Part shown: positions 861 to 16,992 of the stretch, piece by piece
Layout: each line of letters begins with the position of its first letter
Numbering within the stretch: position 1 is the stretch's first letter
IMG/VR virus record: IMGVR_UViG_3300032304_001213
Span: 1-21,292 of that record
Source: a virus
DNA length: 21,292 nt
Direction: 5' to 3' (one strand)
Translations under genes and position numbers: made by a program
The notes under the pieces: generated by a model
What the model saw: the letters and a program-made list of their open reading frames with translations, nothing else
What the model was told of the DNA's origin: nothing
Databases searched by the model: none

Positions 861-3170
861 TTAGAATACTCCTTCGTCAAATGTTTCAATCGAATCCACA
901 TACTTCTGTGCCTTTGCGTTTAATCTTACACCCATGTAGACCTGCTGTCGGTCGCCGTTGTCGCGCACCTGCTCTGAGCGTACTAGCTGTTCCTGTGTGG
1001 CCGCTAAGAATCTGCGCTTGAACGCCTGCTCTGTCCCTGGGGGCATTGACTTCTTGAGCGCCCAGTGTTTGTAGCAGGCAAACACTTCCTCCTTGCTGAC
1101 CATGTAGTCAGGACTAAACTCCAGTGCGTCCTCAGAGAATGATCCGATTGGATTGCCCAGCTCGGCCATCAAGTCCAAGTATTCCTTACCCGAGTGTGGC
1201 TGCATAAAGTGACCGCCCCTAGCAATGCGCCGCTTGAGTCCTTCCATCGCCCAGTTAAAGATACCGCCTAGCTCTTGCTCCAGCTTATGTGACAAGTCGG
1301 TGTCTTCCTTGTTAAAAAACGACTTGCTCATTTTCAGCACGATCATGCGGCCTGTGAGAGCATTACTGTTCTCTGTCAGTTGTAGCACCTCATTAGAGTA
1401 GATTACCAAACGCGTAGGAAGATAGCCATTCCATGCCTCTTTATTCTTACGATTAACTGTAATAGTGTCGCCGCCCACAATACGAAGAAGCTGAGATACA
1501 ACAGCACTGCGATTTCGTTCGGGAGCTCGAGCGTCAGTAAAAGAAGCAAGCAGCTTGCCAAGCCAAGGTTGCAAACCAAAAGTATCACATAGTTCTCCCA
1601 GTTCGGGCGCGACGGTGTTGTGCTGTCCAAGCAGTGCCACCAGCACCTTGTTGATGGTGCCCTTGCCTGAGCGGCGTGGGCCGATGATGTTAAAGAATTT
1701 CTGCTGTCTCGTGTCTCCCGACAGGATGTAGCCGAACATCTCTTGCAGTGTGTCGATTGACTCTTGGTCATCACCCCACACCGAGCGCAAGAACGCGTCC
1801 CATGTAGGCGATGCGGCGGTCTGGTTGTACTCGAATGGCAGTGAGTTCTGCGTAAAGAATCCCAGTGAGTGCGGTATCAGTATGCTGTCCTCTAAATGGA
1901 AGATGCCATTCTTGAGCGAGACCAGCTTGGATGCGGCTGGCTTGGCGTGCGAGTAGTCTTCTAACCAAATCGGTGGCTTGGTGTTCGGGTGGTTGGGTAG
2001 GTGCACGATCGACTTGATTGCGTCGATTGCACCCGATACCGTGGCCGGTGACGGATTGAACGGCACCAGCGCACCCTGCTTGCCTGCCTTCTTGCACTTC
2101 TCTAAGAACGCGTACACCTTGGAGCGGATGGTGGCCTCCTCGATCACCTCGTAGTGCGTCCCTGCGTAGATAAAGAAGTCGTCTGCATAGTGCACCAGCT
2201 TGTAGCCCTCCTCGCTGGAGTAGTAGTTATCCAAGAACGTGCGGGCATGGTTCATTGCACCCGAGTCCAAGATAGTCTCGCCCCGAGCCAATGCCTCCTT
2301 GCGCTCTTGGTGGTTGACTTGGAACAGGAGCGAGCGTAGCGTCGCGCCCGATCCCTTGAACGTCCTCCATTTGTTCTCGCACGAGTAGTCTCCCGTGGCA
2401 GTGTAGCCTGCGCCCTGTGACGACCACCGATCCCATGCCTCACAAGCCTCGACGTCGCCGCCAAACTGGTGGTGCAGGATCGCGCCTACCTTAAGCCAGT
2501 CTGAGTAGCCCATGTTGGGATCGAGCTTGGCTAGGATCTCTGTCTCGACTCGGTGTATGTCGTACCCCTCGAGCGGGGCTGTGTAGTCACCGAAGGCGTC
2601 GCCTGTCTTGTGCAGTGTGCGCTCGGGGATCACCGAGCTCAAGTCCTGCACCTCGGCGGGCACCGTGCCGCTGATGTGCCTGCCAGTGACCGTAAAGAAA
2701 CGCGAGTTAGCGTACGCCTCAAAGCCGATGCTGTGGTCTGCGTGGGAGGCGAACGGGTTGGATCGGGTAAATATCTTGACGCCTGTGCCTGAGGGGCTGA
2801 CCTCCATGTAGCCGTTGACGTTGTCTGCTAATTGCTGCATTGCAGCATTTATGAAACCGGCTGTGTGGTGGTCGTAGCAATCATCTAAGTCGATTCCTAC
2901 TAGGTCGTCTTCGTGTGAGAAGACAAAGCCTACGCCGTCAAACTTGTGCGTGTTGTAGGCCTGCTCGACGGACATAAAATCCGTCCACGTCTTGGGGTCT
3001 GTCGATGAGGCATACCGCCCCGTTACTTGGAGCGGCATCTTAGCCCATCGCCGGTTCACCCCATCGCCTACCTGTACGAACGACCACATCACCCAGCGGG
3101 GCACCTTACGGAGCTCTAGGGGGATGTTGGCCAGCTCGACGGGCAGGCAAAATGGTTTGGTATCGCTCAT
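861..3170 (-). CDS. P4-alpha-type replication protein: primase-polymerase and SF3 helicase (769 aa)
   Basis: This is a replication initiator that makes primers and unwinds DNA. Residues 20-170 form an archaeo-eukaryotic primase (prim-pol) domain: IDLDDC with metal-binding Asp at 94 and 96, SPSGTG at 125-130 and TGRH at 162-165. Residues about 220-275 resemble the PriCT-2 linker domain (YSDWLKVG, then WDRWS). A superfamily 3 helicase follows, with Walker A GPRRSGKGT at 497-505, an acidic Walker-B-like region near 545 (SFTDAR) and the sensor YSNEV at 591-595. Residues about 675-750 look like the winged-helix C-terminal domain of the D5/P4 family (YMVSKEEVFACYKHW), which in P4 alpha binds origin iterons. 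The start ATG at 3170 has AAAGGA upstream. Just beyond the gene start lie a promoter, a palindrome and an iteron dyad, consistent with an adjacent origin. Length is close to that of P4 alpha (777 aa). No key residue appears missing. Confidence 0.93.
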   Translation of the reverse strand: MSDTKPFCLPVELANIPLELRKVPRWVMWSFVQVGDGVNRRWAKMPLQVTGRYASSTDPKTWTDFMSVEQAYNTHKFDGVGFVFSHEDDLVGIDLDDCYDHHTAGFINAAMQQLADNVNGYMEVSPSGTGVKIFTRSNPFASHADHSIGFEAYANSRFFTVTGRHISGTVPAEVQDLSSVIPERTLHKTGDAFGDYTAPLEGYDIHRVETEILAKLDPNMGYSDWLKVGAILHHQFGGDVEACEAWDRWSSQGAGYTATGDYSCENKWRTFKGSGATLRSLLFQVNHQERKEALARGETILDSGAMNHARTFLDNYYSSEEGYKLVHYADDFFIYAGTHYEVIEEATIRSKVYAFLEKCKKAGKQGALVPFNPSPATVSGAIDAIKSIVHLPNHPNTKPPIWLEDYSHAKPAASKLVSLKNGIFHLEDSILIPHSLGFFTQNSLPFEYNQTAASPTWDAFLRSVWGDDQESIDTLQEMFGYILSGDTRQQKFFNIIGPRRSGKGTINKVLVALLGQHNTVAPELGELCDTFGLQPWLGKLLASFTDARAPERNRSAVVSQLLRIVGGDTITVNRKNKEAWNGYLPTRLVIYSNEVLQLTENSNALTGRMIVLKMSKSFFNKEDTDLSHKLEQELGGIFNWAMEGLKRRIARGGHFMQPHSGKEYLDLMAELGNPIGSFSEDALEFSPDYMVSKEEVFACYKHWALKKSMPPGTEQAFKRRFLAATQEQLVRSEQVRDNGDRQQVYMGVRLNAKAQKYVDSIETFDEGVF

Positions 3171-3882: not shown

Positions 3883-4229
3883 TCGTCCCCCTGTGTGATT
3901 GAGTAGGTGTCACGTAGCCTTGGTGACTCTTCGTTCCATGAGTCACTGGCACCGTAGTCGCCGCGGATGGCACTCATGCGCTCTGCCTTCCTAAACTCGG
4001 GCTCTACTCGCCACCATGCGCTTGATGCTGCCAAGTACTCGATGAAGTCATCGTTCTCTTCGAACAGTGGATGGTTAAGTCCCTCGACGTCGACGGTCTG
4101 TGTCACTACCGCCTGCCGCACCCATGGTCGCTTGGTGTAGCCCTCGGTGCGCACAATACCTACCTTGTCCCGTGCCGTAATGAATCGCTTGTATGCCTTC
4201 TGTTGCTCGTCTGTAAATTGTAGTGTCAT
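3879..4229 (-). CDS. Hypothetical protein directly downstream of the sigma factor (116 aa)
   Basis: The start ATG at 4229 overlaps the sigma-factor stop by the ATGA pattern, so the two should be made together. The sequence starts MTLQFTDEQQKAYKRFITARDKVG (helical), followed by a mixed region containing KRPWVRQAVVTQTVDVEG, an acidic helix (FEENDDFIEYLAAS) and a polar C-terminal tail. No helix-turn-helix typical of sigma region 4 is apparent. Because of its position it is a candidate partner of the sigma factor, for example a co-activator or polymerase-binding protein, but nothing in the sequence demonstrates this. Confidence 0.78.
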   Translation of the reverse strand: MTLQFTDEQQKAYKRFITARDKVGIVRTEGYTKRPWVRQAVVTQTVDVEGLNHPLFEENDDFIEYLAASSAWWRVEPEFRKAERMSAIRGDYGASDSWNEESPRLRDTYSITQGDE

Positions 4230-4798
4230 TCTTCGCTCTCTTCGTTAAAGTTGTCGTCGCTGATACTGCCCAGGGATACTGGTTCACGTGCCAAGCACGC
4301 ACGCAGTCGGTATATCTTACCACTATCCATGTCCAGCGCAGTCGCTAGCTCCTGTACCGTGGGCTTGCGCCCCAGTGACTGGGATAGGATGCGCTCGTTG
4401 TAGTGCATGCGGTAGATGTCCTCGACGACGTTGATGGGTAGCCGTATGATGTTGGCCGTGTTGTCAATCTCCCTGCGCACACCACGCTCGATAAACGAGC
4501 GGGCAAATGCCGCGAATGGTATCTTACCCATGGGTTTCCATCTCTTTGCCGCCTCCAGTAGCTTCTCGTTGCCGATTGCCAGTATGTCCTCCTGTGGTAG
4601 CTTACTGTGTTCCCATACCGTCATCTTGGTGACGACGTGGGGCACAAAGCGCAGGTTATGTCGCACCAGCTTTTCCAGTGCGTTGTCATCCCCTGCGGCG
4701 ATACGTTTAGCTAGATCCTTCTCTTCCTCCAGTGTTAGTGGCTCGATGCCGTATAGTGATTTCAGGTAGTCCGACTTGATGTCGTTGTTATTTGCCAT
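4226..4798 (-). CDS. Sigma-70 family factor lacking region 4, probably the late-promoter sigma (190 aa)
   Basis: The protein should direct RNA polymerase to phage promoters. Residues about 10-45 match region 1.2 (IEPLTLEEEKDLAKRIAAGD). Residues 46-120 match region 2, with LVRHNLRFV, then DILAIGNEKLLEAAKRWKP, then FAAFARSFIERGVRREIDN, the segment that binds the core enzyme and reads the -10 box. Residues 116-178 match region 3 (NIIRLPINVVEDI, LGRKPTVQELA, EPVSLGS). The chain then stops after a short acidic tail where region 3.2 and region 4 would follow, so the -35-reading domain is absent. T4 gp55, also about 185 residues and without a canonical region 4, is the closest known parallel in architecture. 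The start ATG at 4798 lies inside the end of the preceding small gene. It could instead be an early-middle sigma; the repeated promoter supports a late role. Confidence 0.88.
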   Translation of the reverse strand: MANNNDIKSDYLKSLYGIEPLTLEEEKDLAKRIAAGDDNALEKLVRHNLRFVPHVVTKMTVWEHSKLPQEDILAIGNEKLLEAAKRWKPMGKIPFAAFARSFIERGVRREIDNTANIIRLPINVVEDIYRMHYNERILSQSLGRKPTVQELATALDMDSGKIYRLRACLAREPVSLGSISDDNFNEESEE

Positions 4799-5397: not shown

Positions 5398-5889
5398 ATG
5401 AAACGATTAAATCCAAATACGGGTTTGCCTTTTAAGCGTGGCGATCTTCGAGAAGATGGCCGAGTATTTAAAGGGTACAAGACAACAAAAACTAAGCACG
5501 ATGGGTATTATATAGAAAACTGGGTTACTGGTCAAGCATTGATTAAACAAAATGAATACAACAATCATTGGAAAAGAAATAACCCCGAAAAACATAATGC
5601 CCACGTCACTGCTTGTAAAAATAAAAACCCCGCTAAATATAACGCATTAAAGAGAAAACATAAATCCGCCAAAATACAGCGCACACCCCCTTGGCTAAAC
5701 GCCGAACATTGGGCTCAAATAGAATCGTTTTATAAACAAGCATACGACCTAAGCAAAGCCACTGGTATCCAACATCATGTTGATCATATTGTGCCTTTGC
5801 GTGGGCAATTTGTAAGTGGCCTCCATGTACCTTGGAATATGCAAGTATTGACAGCATCTGAAAACTGCTCTAAGTCAAACAGGGTTTGA
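5398..5889 (+). CDS. HNH homing endonuclease, antisense to the early operon (163 aa)
   Basis: This is an HNH nuclease of the free-standing phage type. The catalytic module is at the C-terminus: HHVDH at 126-130, followed by IVPLRG, GLHVPWNMQVLT (Asn 147) and ENCSKSNR (Asn 161). The N-terminus (TGLPFKRGD, then DGRVFKGY) and the basic centre (KRKHKSAKIQR) probably bind DNA. The gene is on the plus strand inside a minus-strand operon, is visibly richer in A/T than its neighbours, has its own phage-type promoter and overlaps the convergent gene by 20 nt. Those are the usual marks of a mobile selfish gene. Its insertion separates the upper and lower parts of the early block. The catalytic residues look intact. 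The cleavage site cannot be read from the sequence. Confidence 0.9.
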   Translation: MKRLNPNTGLPFKRGDLREDGRVFKGYKTTKTKHDGYYIENWVTGQALIKQNEYNNHWKRNNPEKHNAHVTACKNKNPAKYNALKRKHKSAKIQRTPPWLNAEHWAQIESFYKQAYDLSKATGIQHHVDHIVPLRGQFVSGLHVPWNMQVLTASENCSKSNRV

Positions 5890-8923: not shown

Positions 8924-9160
8924 CACCTATTTAATACTTGACTGCGCTGTGGGGTTTTGTGGGATAGTGTGGGATTGCTGGCCTCCCTCGTGCTGTTGTA
9001 TTCTCGCCCACCCTCCAATTTGACCCTCGCGTGCGCATCGCCCTGCAAGCCTTACTGGCTGGTACCCGAGTCCACCACGCTGTCAACGGCATGGTGCCAA
9101 TGCACCTGTGAGGCAAACTGCTAAAACGCCTCTATGCCCCCTTAAAACGCGCCCAATCCG

Positions 9161-9505
9161 TCAATAGGTGTTTACCCTAATAGCCAGCTAAGTTAGTCTG
9201 CACTAAGTTAATGCACCAAAATGGTGCACGCGCCAGCTTGGCTTTGTGGCACGTTGCCGCGTTGTTATCTTGCCACAGTGTTGCGTTCATACAACAAAGC
9301 TGGCGTATGCACCACATTGGTGCATTAACTTAGTGGCTACTAACATCATGCACCACATTGGTGCACGGGCCTGCTCGGCTCGGCAGACAGGGTGCTGGGC
9401 GCGGAGTCAATAGGTGTTTACCCTAGGTGTTGTGCCAGCGCAACAGTGGACTGCTGGCTCGGCATACAGGGTGCTGGGCGCGGAGTCAATAGGTGTTTAC
9501 CCTAG
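9161..9505. repeat. Three copies of TCAATAGGTGTTTACCCTA
   Basis: The 19-bp motif occurs identically at 9161-9179, 9407-9425 and 9486-9504. Its reverse face contains GGGTAAACA, one or two substitutions from the GGGTNNACA iterons of the origin-like elements. A fourth, partial copy in the opposite orientation covers the -35 box of the promoter at 8895-8923. These are good candidates for binding sites of the replication initiator or a regulator. Confidence 0.7.
9201..9335. repeat. Large inverted repeat with 38-bp arms
   Basis: CACTAAGTTAATGCACCA at 9201 and the following bases to 9238 match, in reverse complement and with few mismatches, the segment 9297-9335 that ends TTAACTTAGTG. Each arm contains a smaller palindrome, TGCACCA-N3-TGGTGCA (9212-9228 and 9308-9324). 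A third copy of that palindrome is at 9349-9365. The 58-bp centre holds a further inverted pair, GTGGCA with TGCCAC. As DNA this can form a cruciform; as RNA, a long hairpin. Confidence 0.75.
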
Positions 9506-9544
9506 GTGTTGCGTGCATACAACAGTGTGGCAAGATAACAACGC
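9259..9544. repeat. Perfect 18-bp inverted repeat 250 bp apart
   Basis: GCGTTGTTATCTTGCCAC at 9259-9276 is the exact reverse complement of 9527-9544. Beside each arm is a near-identical direct repeat, GTGTTGCGT(T/G)CATACAACA, at 9278-9296 and 9506-9524. The combination encloses the other repeats of the region. Confidence 0.7.
9377..9511. repeat. 56-bp direct repeat with 79-bp period
   Basis: The segment 9377-9432 recurs at 9456-9511 with a single substitution. It contains ACAGGGTGCTGGGCGCGGAG followed by the TCAATAGG motif. ACAGGGTG also resembles the junction between two tandem iterons. The repeat lies in the divergent intergenic region and codes for nothing recognisable. Confidence 0.75.
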
Positions 9545-9764: not shown

Positions 9765-9791
9765 GCACCCCCTAAAATCACTAGAATGACA

Positions 9792-9903
9792 GGGTGTACA
9801 GGGTAGCACACCCTTTTTACTCTTTTTTAAATTTTTTTTTAAAAAAAATAAATAAAGTATGGAAAGAGTGAAATAAGCCTCGCAACCCTGTCTACCCTTG
9901 ACA
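9792..9903. repeat. Origin-like iteron dyad, copy B
   Basis: GGGTGTACA and GGGTAGCAC (9792-9809) face GGGTAGACA and a degenerate GGGTTGCGA (minus strand, 9897-9880) around an A/T tract. The tract contains AAATAAATAAAGTATGGAAAG exactly as in copy A at 3312-3424. Outer flanks (TTGACAAA on the right) are also shared. It lies just upstream of the first late promoter, 6.5 kb from copy A, mirroring the two-site origin of phage P4 in outline. Confidence 0.7.
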
Positions 9904-9926: not shown

Positions 9927-9959
9927 GGGCGATAACCCCTAGTTGTTTGTATTATTATG
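9927..9959 (+). promoter_or_regulatory. Phage late promoter, first of the structural block
   Basis: GGGCGA (9927-9932) stands 14 nt before TTGTATTATTATG (9947-9959), with one substitution in each box relative to the other sites. If the first TATTAT is the -10 hexamer, the transcription start falls at about 9962, directly on the ATG at 9963. Confidence 0.78.
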
Positions 9960-9962
9960 TGT

Positions 9963-10271
9963 ATGAGCAAATACGTATACCAAATCCAAGGCGCCCTGGA
10001 GAGTAGGCAGGGAGAATTCTTGGGGCTTCGTGTCTTGGTATGTGATGCGTTTAACTTTGATTCGGTTGACATACCTGTAGAGGTACTGGATTCAGAAACC
10101 GCAAAGTACATGCAGTTCAGACTTTCTATTACGGCAGAGACGGTCAACATAGCAAGACTGCCGGTTGAAATCCAAAACAGAATACGCACGCCGTTAGGGC
10201 GATGGCTGGACCACTGGGTCCTAGATAATTTTTATGGCGATAACCGCAAATACAAAGATACTAACGCTTGA
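9963..10271 (+). CDS. Hypothetical protein, first late gene (102 aa)
   Basis: An ATG at 9957 lies inside the promoter's TATTATTATG box and cannot be transcribed, so I take the ATG at 9963, which gives a leaderless message. The product begins MSKYVYQIQGALESRQGEFL and is a mixed alpha/beta protein with a strand-rich first half (LGLRVLVCDAFNF) and a later segment ITAETVNIARLPVEIQNRI. The end, LGRWLDHWVLDNFYGDNRKY, is rich in aromatics. The gene overlaps the next by 38 nt. Its position two genes before the terminase large subunit makes a packaging role possible, but no small-terminase motif is visible. Confidence 0.78.
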   Translation: MSKYVYQIQGALESRQGEFLGLRVLVCDAFNFDSVDIPVEVLDSETAKYMQFRLSITAETVNIARLPVEIQNRIRTPLGRWLDHWVLDNFYGDNRKYKDTNA

Positions 10272-11226
10272 TTACTGGAAGCCAGCCTACAAGCTGGAGG
10301 TAGGTGACTATGTCTTTGATCGTAAGGGCAACATAGTCCAGGTCAAACTAGCGCAGCAGTACCAAGGCATACGCTGCTATGAGGTCATGTTCAACGACTA
10401 CCTGACGGTGGAGGGTGACGCCAACCTGGCGCTACCCACAGAGAACCCCAAATACCGTAACAGGCTGGTCACGTACAAGGGCAAGCTGCAGTTTAGGCGC
10501 CCTCTTAAGCCACTAACGGCCGAGCAGATGCTTGATATGCCGCTACTGGATCAACACAACCGCAAGATACTCTCGGTCCCCACCACAAACCCCCTGGCAT
10601 TACCCCACCAAGACCTACCAGTCCCAGCGTTTGTCTTTGGGTTCTGGTTCTTTGCCCGTAGATCGACTGGCAGGATGGCTGCGGCCAAGGGAACAACCGA
10701 GTTTGTGGTGCAACGATTCAAAGACCATGGCTACAAAGTGGTTATGGGACCGCTGATCAACACCGGGGAGCGCGAATTTAGCGTCACACCCACAGTTGAG
10801 TCGCAGTTAATCCCCAACATCCCCAAGATTATCACCAACAACTACCTTTTTTCGTCGCCAGAGCAGCGACAAGACTTACTTTCTGGCATTGTCTGCGCAA
10901 AAAACAGGCGTTACAACAAGAGATCAGACCGTTTTCGGTTTTCTTCTCGCCAATACGACACCGTTCGCCGTGTCCAGCTCCTGGCAGAGTCCCTTGGCGG
11001 GCGGTCTAGCCTGCAAAGTGACGACCACAAGAAGGATTTTACGGTTTTCTTTAAGATCCGCGCGCCCATCCACCCGGAACAGAGCTCGCCCAAAGTAAAA
11101 GTCCACCATGGCAGACGTTATGTCAGCAAGATCAGCCCAATCCCGACCCAGATGTGTGTGCACATTGAGACAACGGGCGAGGATAACACCATTTTAGTGG
11201 GGGAGGGCTTCATACCATGTCTTTAA
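10234..11226 (+). CDS. Intein-derived (Hint/LAGLIDADG-like) protein without catalytic residues (330 aa)
   Basis: The protein begins exactly where an intein would: MAITANTKILTLDYWK aligns with intein block A (C-x-x-x-D/N-TKILT-x-x-G-WK), but the first catalytic Cys is Ala. EVGDYVFDRKG (22-32) is the usual next strand. Block B, expected around residues 58-68 (VEGDANLALP), lacks the His. The C-terminus, CVHIETTGEDNTILVGEGF followed by IPCL, matches intein blocks F and G, but the terminal His-Asn is missing and the chain stops there. The middle resembles a dodecapeptide homing endonuclease: FVFGFWFFARRS (133-144) and LLSGIVCAKN (215-224) followed by RFRFSS and LLAESLGG. Both motif aspartates are replaced. 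It lies directly before, and overlaps, the terminase gene, the usual small-terminase position. No good ribosome binding site precedes the ATG. Confidence 0.75.
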   Translation: MAITANTKILTLDYWKPAYKLEVGDYVFDRKGNIVQVKLAQQYQGIRCYEVMFNDYLTVEGDANLALPTENPKYRNRLVTYKGKLQFRRPLKPLTAEQMLDMPLLDQHNRKILSVPTTNPLALPHQDLPVPAFVFGFWFFARRSTGRMAAAKGTTEFVVQRFKDHGYKVVMGPLINTGEREFSVTPTVESQLIPNIPKIITNNYLFSSPEQRQDLLSGIVCAKNRRYNKRSDRFRFSSRQYDTVRRVQLLAESLGGRSSLQSDDHKKDFTVFFKIRAPIHPEQSSPKVKVHHGRRYVSKISPIPTQMCVHIETTGEDNTILVGEGFIPCL

Positions 11227-12662
11227 CAACAAAACAAGAGGCCATCCTCAAGCGATTTGCCGAGGAGCGCAAGAATTGGCCCCAGCAACAGCTCGATGCG
11301 GCGATCTGGCAGATCAAATGGAGCCTACAAGCCCTGCCGCACCAGAAAGAACCAGACGATGGAGAGTATGATACGTTTCTTATGCTTGCCGGTCGTGGAT
11401 CGGGTAAGACCCACACTGCCAGCCATTGGATTGGCATTCGTGCTTGGCGTTATGACAACACCCGCTGGCTCGTCACCGCTCCCACCTCAAACGATATACG
11501 TGCAACTTGTTTCGAGGGGGACTCCGGACTTATCAGTATCATTCCCCCGTCACTTATCCGGGATTACAACAAGTCACTCTTTGAGATTACCCTCACCAAC
11601 GGGTCTATCATTCAGGGTATCCCAGCCTCAGAGCCAGAACGGTACCGTGGTAAGCAATACCATGGGGCCTGGTTCGACGAGTTGTGTGCATTCGATTACA
11701 TCGACGATGCCTACGACGGCGTACAGTTTACCCTACGTCTTAAGGACCCGCGAATCCCTCGAGTGCAGCAGATTATTACCACCACTCCAAAGCCCAAGGA
11801 ACTGATTGTAGACCTTAACGAGGGCAAGGTAGGGGGTGATGTATACGTAGCCAATGCAAGCTCCTACGACAACCGTGCAAACCTCTCAGAGACCTTTTTT
11901 AAGCAGCTAGAGACGTACGAGGGAACAGACATTGGTAAGCAGGAGATCTATGGCGAGATCCTAGACCCTGAGGCGGCTGGTATCATCAAGCGCAAACATT
12001 TCCGCATGTGGCCAGCGAACAAGCCCACCCCGGTCCTAGAGTACGTGATTGCCTCGTATGACCCGGCGACCTCTGAGAAAACGGTGAATGACCCCACTGC
12101 CTGTACGGTCTGGGGTGTGTTCGAGAGAGAAGACGCTGGGACGTCTGTCATACTGCTAGACGCATGGGACGCGCACCTGTCGTACCCCGAGCTGCGTCGT
12201 AAGGTGATTGATGACTTCAAGGAAGTTGTCTACGGAGCAGACAATGACTTCGGTAAGGGCAAGAAGGCCGACCTGATACTGATGGAAGACAAGTCCGCCG
12301 GTATCTCGCTGATACAAGAACTCCAAGGCGCTGGCGTGCCCGTCAGGGGATACAATCCAGGCCGCGCGGATAAGATCCAGCGTATCAACATTGTGGCCCC
12401 GCTCGTGCTTAAGGGTAAGGTCTACATCCCCGAAGAGCCAAGTAACCCAGGCGAGTACGCCAACTGGGCCAAACGCTTCATGCGGCAGGTTTGTTCATTT
12501 CCGGAGGCTGGGGGTCATGACGACTACGTTGACAGCCTCAGCCAGGCCCTACGCGTCCTCAGGGACTCTGGCTGGTTGCAGCTTGATCCGTTGCCTGCCA
12601 GGGACTATGACTACGCTGACGACGACTCAAACAGGAAGTTTAGCAATCCCTACGCACAATAG
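11217..12662 (+). CDS. terL: Terminase large subunit (481 aa)
   Basis: This is the DNA-packaging motor and nuclease. The ATPase has Walker A GRGSGKT at 59-65, Walker B AWFDE at 151-155 and a coupling motif TTTPKP around 188-193. The RNase H-like nuclease domain shows the acidic triad at Asp 282 (ASYDPA), Asp 358 (LMEDKS) and Asp 436 (GGHDDYVDS). Length and order of motifs are normal for a complete terminase and there is no internal intein, which matters because an intein relative lies immediately upstream. The ATG overlaps the end of that gene by 10 nt. No strong Shine-Dalgarno sequence is present (GGGGGAGGG lies about 8 nt upstream and may serve). The next gene starts behind its own late promoter. 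Confidence 0.95.
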   Translation: MSLTTKQEAILKRFAEERKNWPQQQLDAAIWQIKWSLQALPHQKEPDDGEYDTFLMLAGRGSGKTHTASHWIGIRAWRYDNTRWLVTAPTSNDIRATCFEGDSGLISIIPPSLIRDYNKSLFEITLTNGSIIQGIPASEPERYRGKQYHGAWFDELCAFDYIDDAYDGVQFTLRLKDPRIPRVQQIITTTPKPKELIVDLNEGKVGGDVYVANASSYDNRANLSETFFKQLETYEGTDIGKQEIYGEILDPEAAGIIKRKHFRMWPANKPTPVLEYVIASYDPATSEKTVNDPTACTVWGVFEREDAGTSVILLDAWDAHLSYPELRRKVIDDFKEVVYGADNDFGKGKKADLILMEDKSAGISLIQELQGAGVPVRGYNPGRADKIQRINIVAPLVLKGKVYIPEEPSNPGEYANWAKRFMRQVCSFPEAGGHDDYVDSLSQALRVLRDSGWLQLDPLPARDYDYADDDSNRKFSNPYAQ

Positions 12663-13327: not shown

Positions 13328-16084
13328 ATGGCACAACCAATACTCCCGATGCAAACCGGCGCTAACCTACCTGGACTTGAAAAAGAAGAGGACCTGGAGC
13401 TAGCCGCGCAACAAGACGCAGAGATGGACTACTACGAAGAGGCGCTTGACTTAGAGCCAGGCGACGTAGAGCAAGAGATCATTGAGCAGGAAGACGGATC
13501 GGTTGTAGTTAACTTTACACCAAAGGCATCGCCCAAAGAAGCGCCAGAGTTTTATGCTAACCTGGCCGAAGAAATGGACGAGGACATCCTAGAAGGATTG
13601 GCCGCTGAGTATTTAGATTTTATTGACGTTGACCAAGAGTCACGCAAACAACGAGACAAACAGTACGAAGAAGGACTTCGTCGCACTGGACTCGGCAAGG
13701 ACGCGCCCGGAGGAGCCACGTTTGACGGAGCTTCCAAAGTCGTCCACCCCGTTATGGCTGAGGCATGCGTTGACTTTGCTGCCTCATCCTCAAAAGAATT
13801 ACTACCACCCGATGGCATCGTGCGCTCTAACGTTAAGGGCCAAGCAGACCGCCTCAAGGAAGAGACAGCCGCTCGTAAGGTAGACTTTCTTAACTGGCAG
13901 CTCACAGAACAGATCGCAGAGTACCGCGACGAGATGGAGCAGTTGCTCACACAACTACCACTTGGTGGTTCACAGTTCCTCAAGTGGCGCTGGGAGTCAG
14001 AGCAAAAGCGTCCTACCTGCGAGTGGGTACCAATTGACAACATCCTCTTACCGTATGCGTCCACTAACTTCTACACCGCCCAGCGCGTTACTGAAGTGCA
14101 GGACATTACAGAAGACACATTCCTGCAGCGCGTCGAGGCTGGTATTTACCGCGACATCGACACCGAGTACACGTCTGATGCACCGCTAACAGAACAAACC
14201 CGCAGCCAAGAAGCAAACGACAAGATTGAGGGCAAACAGAATCCGTCTAAGAACATTGACGGACTACGCCGCGTCTACGAGATTACATGCTTCATGCGCC
14301 TGGACGATGATGCAGAGACAGGCGGAGCACGCGCCCCGTACATCCTCACCATCGACGAGACAACCAGCAAGGTTATTGGACTCTACCGTAACTGGGAAGC
14401 CAACGACGAAAAAATGGAGAAGCTAGACTGGTATGTCGAGTTTAAATTTATTCCTTGGAGAGGCGCTTACGCGATTGGACTGCCTCATCTTATTGGCGGC
14501 CTTGCTGCTGCTCTCACTGGTGCTCTACGCGCTCTTCTCGATGCAGCGCACATTAACAACAGCCAGACGCTCCTTAAACTTAAGGGCGGCCGAATTGGCG
14601 GCCAGTCGGATCGCATCGAGCCGACGCAAGTCGTCGAAATCGAAGGCGCGCCGGGAGTAGACGACGTACGTAAGTTGGCTATGCCAATGCCGTTCAACCA
14701 GCCGTCCTCTGTATTGTTCAACCTCTTAGGTTGGCTGACAGACGCAGCTAAGGGCGTTGTCAGCACAGCAGAAGAAAAGATTGGCCAGGCAAACAACAAC
14801 ATGCCGGTCGGTACAGCCCAGGCTTTGATCGAACAAGGCGCTAAGGTATTTTCCGCTATCCACGCCCGTCTGCATCGCAGTCAGGCCAAGTCCCTCGCAA
14901 TTGTATCCCGTATCAATCACTGGTACTTGGACGAGATGGACAACCAGTCTGGCTCTGAGATCCAGGTTCGTGACTTTGCGGCAAACAACGACGTACGCCC
15001 AGTATCCGACCCCAACATCTTTTCTGAGACCCAGCGCGTGGCCCAGAACCAGGCACTGTTGCAGATGGCTAACTCAGCGCCCCCAGGTATGTTTGACACC
15101 CGCGCTGTCTATCGCCGCGTCTTAGGTCAGCTTAAGATCCCCGCGATTGACGAGGTATTGCCAAACCCACTGGGAGCTAAAGAGTCTAACCCAGCACTGG
15201 AAAACGTTGGAATGACAATGGGCCGCCCAGCTGCAGCCTACCCAGACCAAGACCACATCTCTCACATTAAGATTCACTTAGCCTACGCTAAAGATCCAGC
15301 ATACGGGTCTAGCCCAGTGGTTGGTCCTACTTTTGCACCGCATGTTTTGGAGCACATCAAGCAGCACTTGACGCTCCACTACCTGCAGTCTATGCGCTCG
15401 TACGTGGCGCAGGCAGCAGGCGGCCGCGACACCTTAGAACTACACCAAGAGAAGCCACTGAACCTGGAAGCGCAGCAGGCACTTGCATTGGCATCCGACA
15501 TGGTAACGCAAGACGCGCAGCAATCCATGCAGGCGTTTATTCCTGAGATCCAGGCACTGGCCCAGAAGGTACAGCAAGCAGTACAGGCACAGCAACAAAA
15601 CATGGCCAACTCTGATCCAACGGCCCAGGTTATCCTCAAGACGCAGATGGCTGAGACACAGCGCAAGCAGGCTGAGTCCCAGGCACGTATGCAGCTCGAG
15701 GCAGAAAAAGCCAAGCAAGACTACCAGTTGCGTATTGCTGAGCTGCAGCGCCAGGTTGCCGAGCTGGAGACTAAGTACCAGACCCAGAGCGCAATTGACT
15801 CGAACAAGAGCACGACACAGATCGCACTGGCAGACGTTAACAACGCCTCCCGCGAGCGAGTCGCTGCAATTAACGCACAGGCCGGACTAACAGCCGACCA
15901 GATGGCAATGGCGCACGAGCAGAACCAGACAGCGTTCCAGGCATCTAACGCAGCGCAGCAAGAACTAACGCGCCATGGTCTGGATATTGAAAAAAGAGCA
16001 TTTGAACAACAAGCTGCACAAACCCAAGAGCTGCTAAGAGCTGCAGCCGCATCACAACCACCCACTAATCCTACAGGAGTATAA
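13328..16084 (+). CDS. Portal protein (918 aa)
   Basis: This long protein sits between terminase and the scaffold/capsid genes, the place of the portal, the ring through which DNA enters the head. It begins with an acidic, probably disordered region (residues 15-100, EEDLELAAQQDAEMD and similar). A conserved-looking core follows with GATFDGASKVVHPVMAEA and SSKELLPPDG, typical of large portals of podovirus-like phages. The body includes WVPIDNILLP and an LNWQLTEQ helix. From about residue 715 to the end the sequence is a long coiled coil rich in Gln and Ala (AEKAKQDYQLRIAELQRQVAELE), which may extend into the capsid as a barrel-like region. It is larger than most portals (500-750 aa), largely because of that tail. 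The start ATG lies 3 nt after the previous stop. Confidence 0.85.
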   Translation: MAQPILPMQTGANLPGLEKEEDLELAAQQDAEMDYYEEALDLEPGDVEQEIIEQEDGSVVVNFTPKASPKEAPEFYANLAEEMDEDILEGLAAEYLDFIDVDQESRKQRDKQYEEGLRRTGLGKDAPGGATFDGASKVVHPVMAEACVDFAASSSKELLPPDGIVRSNVKGQADRLKEETAARKVDFLNWQLTEQIAEYRDEMEQLLTQLPLGGSQFLKWRWESEQKRPTCEWVPIDNILLPYASTNFYTAQRVTEVQDITEDTFLQRVEAGIYRDIDTEYTSDAPLTEQTRSQEANDKIEGKQNPSKNIDGLRRVYEITCFMRLDDDAETGGARAPYILTIDETTSKVIGLYRNWEANDEKMEKLDWYVEFKFIPWRGAYAIGLPHLIGGLAAALTGALRALLDAAHINNSQTLLKLKGGRIGGQSDRIEPTQVVEIEGAPGVDDVRKLAMPMPFNQPSSVLFNLLGWLTDAAKGVVSTAEEKIGQANNNMPVGTAQALIEQGAKVFSAIHARLHRSQAKSLAIVSRINHWYLDEMDNQSGSEIQVRDFAANNDVRPVSDPNIFSETQRVAQNQALLQMANSAPPGMFDTRAVYRRVLGQLKIPAIDEVLPNPLGAKESNPALENVGMTMGRPAAAYPDQDHISHIKIHLAYAKDPAYGSSPVVGPTFAPHVLEHIKQHLTLHYLQSMRSYVAQAAGGRDTLELHQEKPLNLEAQQALALASDMVTQDAQQSMQAFIPEIQALAQKVQQAVQAQQQNMANSDPTAQVILKTQMAETQRKQAESQARMQLEAEKAKQDYQLRIAELQRQVAELETKYQTQSAIDSNKSTTQIALADVNNASRERVAAINAQAGLTADQMAMAHEQNQTAFQASNAAQQELTRHGLDIEKRAFEQQAAQTQELLRAAAASQPPTNPTGV

Positions 16085-16554: not shown

Positions 16555-16992
16555 GTGTTTGATTTAAAAGGCAATGAAGAGCCGGATACACGATCAGAGG
16601 AAGAATGTTTTCCCGCAATCGACACCGGTATTGAGGTAGCTGGAGACCGTGTCCTAGTACAACTACGACGCGAAAAATCAACCAGCAAGGGCGGAATCAT
16701 CCTAGTCGATGAGACCAGACAGACGCTACGATTTAACGAGACGGTTGCAAAGGTAGTCCAGATTGGACCCCTAGCATACAAATCGCCAGACACACTGGAG
16801 CCGTGGATTGAAGGCCCCTGGTGTAATGTGGGTGACTTGGTTCGCACTATCAAGTACGGCGGCGATCGTTTTGTTGTGCAACCAGATGATGAGGGTTCTC
16901 CCGTAGTATTCATCACGTTGCAGGCTCGTGAAATCATTTCTCGCATCAAGTCGTTTGAGTATGCGCAGAAAATGAAAGCGTTCATAGATTAA
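16555..16992 (+). CDS. GroES-like co-chaperonin (145 aa)
   Basis: The protein matches the GroES/Cpn10 fold: GDRVLVQL at 30-37, the mobile-loop-like STSKGGIIL at 42-50, AKVVQIGP at 65-72, VGDLVRTIKYGG at 92-103 and a C-terminal strand at 117-124. GroES caps the host GroEL ring. Phage versions such as T4 gp31 are needed to fold the major capsid protein, which fits its place just before scaffold and capsid genes. It is longer than bacterial GroES (about 97 aa) because of an N-terminal extension of about 25 residues, an insert around residues 73-90 and a C-terminal helix. The start is GTG at 16555 with GGGAG upstream; no in-frame ATG is near. The start is therefore less certain than the family. 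Confidence 0.82.
   Translation: MFDLKGNEEPDTRSEEECFPAIDTGIEVAGDRVLVQLRREKSTSKGGIILVDETRQTLRFNETVAKVVQIGPLAYKSPDTLEPWIEGPWCNVGDLVRTIKYGGDRFVVQPDDEGSPVVFITLQAREIISRIKSFEYAQKMKAFID

Follow-up and report, generated by a model that had tools for sequence, protein, structure and literature searches.

A conserved, extein-less relative of class 3 inteins without catalytic residues is encoded beside terL in uncultured freshwater phages

Here, we describe a family of phage proteins that originated as a class 3 intein, are encoded by an extein-less gene of their own directly upstream of the large terminase gene, terL, and have lost the residues associated with both activities of an intein of this type, i.e., protein splicing and DNA cutting. 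On sequence evidence, the intein-like gene is under purifying selection and belongs to the core genes of a large group of uncultured freshwater phages. Inteins are held to decay after the loss of splicing or homing. A dead intein family is here preserved intact under selection, and therefore probably has a new job. We propose tentatively, and at somewhat less than an even chance of being right, that the protein is a domesticated class 3 intein that now serves as a non-cutting, nucleic acid-binding accessory with TerL or the late operon.

The gene and its neighborhood

The founding member of the family lies on a virus contig of 21,292 bases, the whole of which was analyzed and is referred to here as the window. 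The intein-like gene (10234–11226) overlaps the start of terL at 11217, and an earlier note, made from the letters of the window, was right that its frame is intact over 330 codons and runs into terL (Table 1). The gene has its own start, and its frame differs from those of both of its neighbors, orf104 and terL; hence, it is not an in-frame insertion in a host protein. The two genes overlap in all 112 loci from which terL was extracted, by 10 nt in 85 of them and by 7 nt in the other 27. The window contains no Rfam hits and no tRNAs. A scan of genome contigs returned a single locus, on a contig of a betaproteobacterial MAG.

Table 1. Positions of the features discussed, in the window unless a locus is named
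Feature	Position	Strand	Remarks
Primase	861-3170	-	left side, minus-strand genes
Sigma factor	4229-4798	-	left side, minus-strand genes
Left repeat pair, 9-nt period	9789..9806	.	ACAGGGTGT ACAGGGTAG; imperfect, by eye
Right repeat pair, 9-nt period	9885..9902	.	ACCCTGTCT ACCCTTGAC; inverted relative to left pair; imperfect, by eye
orf104, conserved partner gene	9957..10271	+	104 codons; overlaps start of intein-like gene
Intein-like gene (Hint + LAGLIDADG)	10234..11226	+	330 aa; ATG start; 0 internal stops
N-terminal Hint segment	10234..10437	+	residues 1-68; B:10 His and B:12 Trp missing
Basic linker/accessory region	10438..10623	+	residues 69-130; mean net charge +7.3
LAGLIDADG domain	10624..11058	+	residues 131-275; aspartates missing at 141 and 223
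C-terminal Hint segment	11059..11223	+	residues 276-330; His310 in place of F:4 Cys; stops short of His-Asn
terL (Terminase_6N/6C)	11217..12662	+	start codon within end of intein-like gene
Portal	13328-16084		right of terL
GroES-like gene	16555-16992		right of terL
pqqA-like gene	L051:7850-7921; L036:512-583; L142:5495-5566; L148:5848-5922; L150:1351-1422		family loci without orf104

The partner gene orf104 is present in 106 of the 111 distinct family loci that have at least 330 nt of upstream sequence. No Pfam family was matched by more than 2 of 33 members, Foldseek gave 0 matches at E ≤ 0.001, and the best VIA Z score was only 4.9. Thus, no known family or fold was found for orf104, yet we do not call it a new fold. 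In all five distinct loci that lack orf104, a PqqA-like peptide gene is located upstream of the intein-like gene; the two copies scanned matched PF08042 (E 3e-10 and 5e-11), with TIGR02107 above the cut-off. At one further locus (L022:7501–8000), an ORF that we label HNH-like by eye lies between orf104 and the intein-like gene. A window ORF that resembles it (5398–5889) had no Pfam match.

Fold and class 3 ancestry

An AlphaFold model of the 330-aa protein, built from an alignment of 42 homologues, has a pLDDT of 89.2 and a pTM of 0.67, the latter meaning that the orientation of the domains is uncertain. Foldseek matched the model to PI-SceI, an intein with Hint and LAGLIDADG domains (E 6.9e-14), and to I-DmoI (E about 6e-5). 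With VIA-align, the Hint part was superimposed on the MchDnaB-1 intein (Z 18.9, 1.9 Å over 128 residues) and on MsmDnaB-1 (Z 18.5, 1.7 Å over 123 residues). Among solved structures, the class 3 DnaB inteins and PI-SceI match best, and these comparisons bear out the proposal that the protein is a Hint domain split by a LAGLIDADG endonuclease.

In a search of 50,697 phage records, 331 of which had a match, the nearest sequence was the intein carried by a DnaB-like helicase in Brevibacterium phage Rousseau (E 1e-13; 26.5% identical across 99% of the protein), and the Bixzunavirus gp205 intein ranked second. No isolate phage among the 50,697 records is close to the family, the best match being the 26.5% identical DnaB intein. 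Class 3 inteins are defined by the absence of the N-terminal nucleophile together with Trp at B:12, Cys at F:4, and Thr at G:5 (PMC3196547). Both the Rousseau and the gp205 intein carry the class 3 pattern, i.e., His-x-Trp in block B, Cys in block F, and a terminal Thr-His-Asn. Pfam and NCBIfam gave no matches to the intein-like protein, and in PHROG it matched two TerL profiles, into which inteins seem to have been built; no TerS profile was matched, although a TerS could escape such a search. The family descends from a class 3 intein that has become an extein-less gene of its own. Between the N-terminal Hint segment and the LAGLIDADG domain, residues 69–130 are positioned like the accessory DNA-recognition region of an intein described in PMC8966425, and by this analogy may have a similar, putative role.

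Catalytic residues across the family

Residues were surveyed in 117 distinct, intact, full-length genes, with the block B positions read from 58 rows that were mapped via the alignment. The protein sequence opens exactly at intein residue 1, directly after the initiator Met, and this residue is Ala in 117/117. The earlier note had placed the start correctly but had taken the Ala for a lost Cys. Class 3 DnaB relatives likewise begin with Ala, and the residue therefore reflects the class 3 state rather than a loss. The other absences reported from the single sequence, i.e., those of the block B His, the terminal His-Asn, and both endonuclease aspartates, extend to all family members compared. 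At B:10 (position 65), where His is expected, 56 of the 58 rows have Leu and 2 have Met; at B:12 (position 67), where Trp is expected, all 58 have Leu or Phe. The Cys expected at F:4 is replaced by His in 106 and by Tyr in 11 of the 117 proteins. Residue 329, which aligns with the G:5 Thr, is Cys in 117/117, and a His-Asn end is found in 0/117. The family hence lacks the Trp, Cys, and Thr that make up the WCT motif of class 3.

Two cysteines were considered as nucleophiles and rejected. The alignments set F:4 at His310, which excludes Cys308 as the class 3 nucleophile. Cys329 was considered as a kept C-terminal nucleophile, but the start codon of terL, ATG or GTG, overlaps its codon and forces it to be TGN, so its invariance needs no function.

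An active LAGLIDADG enzyme has an acidic residue at the end of each of its two motif helices. The fold is present, and Asp is gone in 117/117 from both of the positions that we take to be catalytic: the first is Asn in 85, Ala in 22, Ser in 8, Cys in 1, and Gly in 1, and the second is Lys in 113 and Arg in 4. Homologues with intact catalytic residues, which the earlier note had named as evidence that would count against it, numbered 0 among the 117 distinct genes at this position. Judged by these residues, both known activities, splicing and DNA cutting, are lost family-wide.

Conservation and selection

The sequence collection comprised 246 rows, from which 2 known inteins were removed to leave 244 family rows: 222 are full-length, 20 run into a contig edge, and 2 are broken, these being one and the same contig (L101 = L183). 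The edge and broken rows were also set aside. The full-length rows represent 117 distinct DNA sequences with 0 internal stops. Loci overlap between scans, and distinct sequences were counted where possible.

The ratio dN/dS was taken only from pairs with 0.1 < dS < 1, and strict text rules allowed orf104 to be extracted for 70 and terL for 112 of the 117 sequences. The median is 0.090 for the intein-like gene (123 pairs), 0.036 for terL (148 pairs), and 0.18 for orf104 (167 pairs); the comparison across homologues that the earlier note had called for thus indicates purifying selection. Within the protein, pN/pS ranges from 0.04 to 0.21 between segments. The Hint segments have the lowest pN/pS (0.04–0.09; residues 1–12, 0.042; residues 13–68, 0.087) as well as the lowest entropy, and the linker and LAGLIDADG segments range from 0.17 to 0.21. 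The intein-like protein diverges much faster than terL, with a median dN of 0.44 vs 0.10 (2211 pairs). All 117 proteins are basic, with a median pI of 9.6 (9.07–9.93), compared with 5.3 for TerL.

To gauge retention from the side of terL, 80 loci fetched with terL only were used; 12 with <700 nt upstream were set aside, and the intein-like gene was present in 68/68 of those with at least 700 nt. The attributes of a domesticated element, i.e., loss of the residues for mobility, maintenance of the gene by selection, and core inheritance, are all found here. Retention for a new role, as had been suggested from the one sequence, agrees with the number of distinct intact copies, the low dN/dS, and the presence of the gene at every terL locus with sufficient upstream sequence.

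The small terminase

In the sister phages (Manatee Spring phage and Caulobacter phage RW), an ordinary terS lies upstream of terL. Indeed, 72 of 80 Manatee-type loci have an adjacent terS, and 0 of 80 have the intein-like protein; in the family loci, terS is missing from beside terL. Caulobacter phage RW also has a partial TerL paralogue of 222 aa between terS and the full terL (L065:2445–3113).

Elsewhere in the family genomes is a gene for a 131-aa HTH protein, located in one genome (G001) at 2215–2604 on the minus strand, compared with 19393 for the intein-like gene. The best four PHROG matches of the HTH protein (phrog_309, 4102, 4044, and 1482) are all annotated as “terminase small subunit”, with E values of 3e-7 to 2e-4 across the two copies scanned and of 3e-7 to 2e-5 for one of them; against Pfam Sf6_terminase, the protein fell below the cut-off. 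A six-copy profile detected it in 19 of 40 family records, including 11 of the 13 that are at least 45 kb long, and in 0 of 10 sister-type records. The HTH protein had no match in the 21 kb window. The earlier note saw no terS because this gene falls outside the window; its statement that terS was not otherwise identifiable holds for the fragment but not for the family. The HTH protein is a probable, rather than a proven, TerS. Because the likely terS lies elsewhere in the family genomes, the intein-like protein is probably not the small terminase subunit. The small-terminase role suggested for it is accordingly not supported, and a clear terS elsewhere, which the earlier note had named as grounds against its proposal, is probably what the HTH gene represents.

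Repeat arrays upstream of the operon

Upstream of the operon, GC-containing 7-mers recur at a lag of 9 nt in 84 of 104 loci and at a lag of 18 nt in 22; each of the other lags between 6 and 24 nt accounts for no more than 4 loci. In two control regions, recurrence at a lag of 9 nt was seen in 3/104 and 3/87 loci. Two or more arrays are present in 53 of the 104 loci. The arrays often form an inverted pair ~90 nt apart that flanks an A/T tract just upstream of orf104 (orientation judged by eye; e.g., L030, L099, and L100). Their layout is conserved and clade-specific, and the sequence of the repeat is phage-specific and fast-changing.

Neither the intein-like protein nor orf104 appears to read these arrays, as far as covariation can tell. 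Partial Mantel values are similar for Hint, orf104, and terL. Nearest neighbors share arrays in 35, 38, and 32 of 60 cases, respectively, and a run on 33 phages gave 21, 25, and 18. A site-level comparison with the arrays showed no concentration in the predicted DNA-contact strands. Individual pairs also contradict such a role: L172 differs in its arrays from L163, L175, and L199, yet their intein-like proteins are 96% and their orf104 products 99% identical, and the arrays of L038 and L228 are alike, with 43% identity between their intein-like proteins and 66% between their orf104 products. By these sequence comparisons, the array motif tracks neither linked gene. The arrays are the only upstream candidates for sites of the packaging-related DNA recognition that the earlier note had suggested, and they vary independently of the intein-like protein.

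Further upstream, the stretch from 9160 to 9530 is without obvious genes and contains ATGCACCACATTGGTGCA-type palindromes and GTCAATAGGTGTTTACCCTA, each in three copies, together with 43- and 57-nt inverted repeats. It is possibly an origin or a packaging site.

Possible roles of the intein-like protein

Under the accessory role that we tentatively favor, the protein would neither splice nor cut any longer. The basic surface of the LAGLIDADG domain and linker would bind nucleic acid, and the former splicing domain, Hint, which is the most constrained part, would dock a partner, the simplest candidates being TerL and the packaging complex encoded in the same operon. The protein may thus be an accessory in packaging initiation or late-operon control, alongside a separate HTH small terminase. 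The basic charge and the kept LAGLIDADG fold speak for nucleic acid contact, although basic proteins are common. The tighter constraint on Hint (pN/pS about 0.08) than on LAGLIDADG (0.17–0.21) fits a protein–protein role better than DNA reading. Counted against an accessory role are a divergence far above that of terL and the failure of the variable upstream arrays to track the protein. A more specific proposal, which we regard as possible but somewhat unlikely, is that a freshwater phage lineage has made a doubly dead class 3 intein obligate for packaging, where it would serve TerL as a DNA clamp or loader that does not cut, in concert with an unlinked HTH small terminase.

Several other explanations were weighed. 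The low pN/pS and entropy of the Hint segments would also be expected if the frozen splicing site had become a docking groove that makes protein contacts only, e.g., in a TerL chaperone or clamp, and the gene overlap favors co-translation with TerL; the LAGLIDADG part and the basic linker are, however, kept in 117/117 as well, and we consider this explanation unlikely. Much the same holds for a role in regulating the late operon at the level of transcription or translation, in which the degenerate LAGLIDADG protein would act like WhiA, a regulator related to homing endonucleases. The position of the gene would suit a regulator, as it is close to the start of a rightward operon and follows 1.2 kb of repeat-rich sequence in which no genes are obvious. 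A basic protein whose catalytic residues are gone would suit one as well. Against this stand the arrays, which differ at 96% protein identity (L172 vs L163 and L199) and are alike at 43% (L038 and L228), and the lack of an added HTH domain of the WhiA type.

That the protein is itself the small terminase, recognizing the packaging site and loading TerL instead of terS, is improbable. It occupies the terS position of the sister phages, whose Manatee-type loci have terS and never the intein-like protein, family loci have no adjacent terS, and 2 of the 13 long family records lack a separate terS-like gene; but the other 11 encode the HTH protein with terS matches, and the fold is that of an intein. 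A dead homing endonuclease could in principle shield a target site from invading homing elements by covering it, and these phages do appear to host homing-type genes, such as the HNH-like ORF seen by eye at the L022 junction of orf104 and the intein-like gene. No target site was identified, and universal retention with terL exceeds what a shield needs, making this explanation very improbable. Finally, the gene might be a decaying pseudogene, or a spacer held only for the terL ribosome-binding site in its 3′ end. Catalytic residues are lost here as in the Arthrobacter intein pseudogene Arth_1007 (PMC3196547), and the frame is broken in a single contig (L101 = L183). We assign this explanation a very low probability: 117 distinct intact copies, a dN/dS of 0.09, and constraint over the full length of the gene speak strongly against both a pseudogene and a mere ribosome-binding-site spacer. 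The SD-like count of 107/112, for which there was no shuffle control, is given no weight.

Relation to known systems and significance

The closest known relatives are class 3 inteins (mycobacterial DnaB-1, 6bs8/6rix; Rousseau DnaB; Bixzunavirus gp205), to which the family is linked by sequence kinship and a Hint fold within 1.9 Å. The DnaB class 3 inteins share the Ala start, the phage ones share the central LAGLIDADG domain, and occurrence in phages is a further common trait. In contrast to these inteins, the family lacks exteins, the WCT residues, the B:10 His, the terminal His-Asn, and the LAGLIDADG aspartates. Inteins often lie inside TerL, e.g., in mycobacteriophages (PMC5050341) and in phiCbK (PMC3556154), and an intein with a degenerated endonuclease can still splice (PMC8966425).

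The nearest precedent for a decayed class 3 intein is Arth_1007 of Arthrobacter FB24, which has lost the B:10 His and F:4 Cys, has tiny exteins, and is called a pseudogene by its authors and, to their knowledge, the first retained decayed intein (PMC3196547). As described there, Arth_1007 resembles the present family in its class 3 descent, in the loss of these two residues, in similarity confined to the intein, and in its negligible exteins. However, it is a single decaying prophage locus that keeps the B:12 Trp and G:5 Thr, whereas the family described here is large, intact, and selected. The yeast HO endonuclease and WHO elements are likewise intein-derived and extein-less and lack motif G, with HO being a domesticated standalone protein; according to the account in PMC7282813, they have kept the ability to cut DNA and possess a zinc finger. 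The present family, by contrast, has lost its nuclease residues and gained no domain. HK97 gp74 is, by the description in PMC9410871, a nuclease-fold protein that cooperates with terminase, but it is an HNH protein that promotes cos cleavage rather than a LAGLIDADG/Hint protein without catalytic residues. WhiA, as it has been portrayed, is a relative of homing endonucleases that has become a regulator; it differs in having an HTH domain and in being bacterial rather than of phage origin. WhiA is not known to have a Hint domain.

Within the terms used, searches of the open literature brought up no conserved phage intein family that is both extein-less and catalytically dead. Domesticated homing elements are already known, and a conserved, doubly dead, extein-less intein family appears to be a variant of these. 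A selected family of this kind, without catalytic residues, shows one way in which the fold can be retained for another use. If the protein does act as a clamp or loader for TerL, an intein would have been domesticated for a function that depends on neither of its former catalytic activities. The gene offers a defined handle on a step in packaging or in late expression in phages that are common in freshwater.
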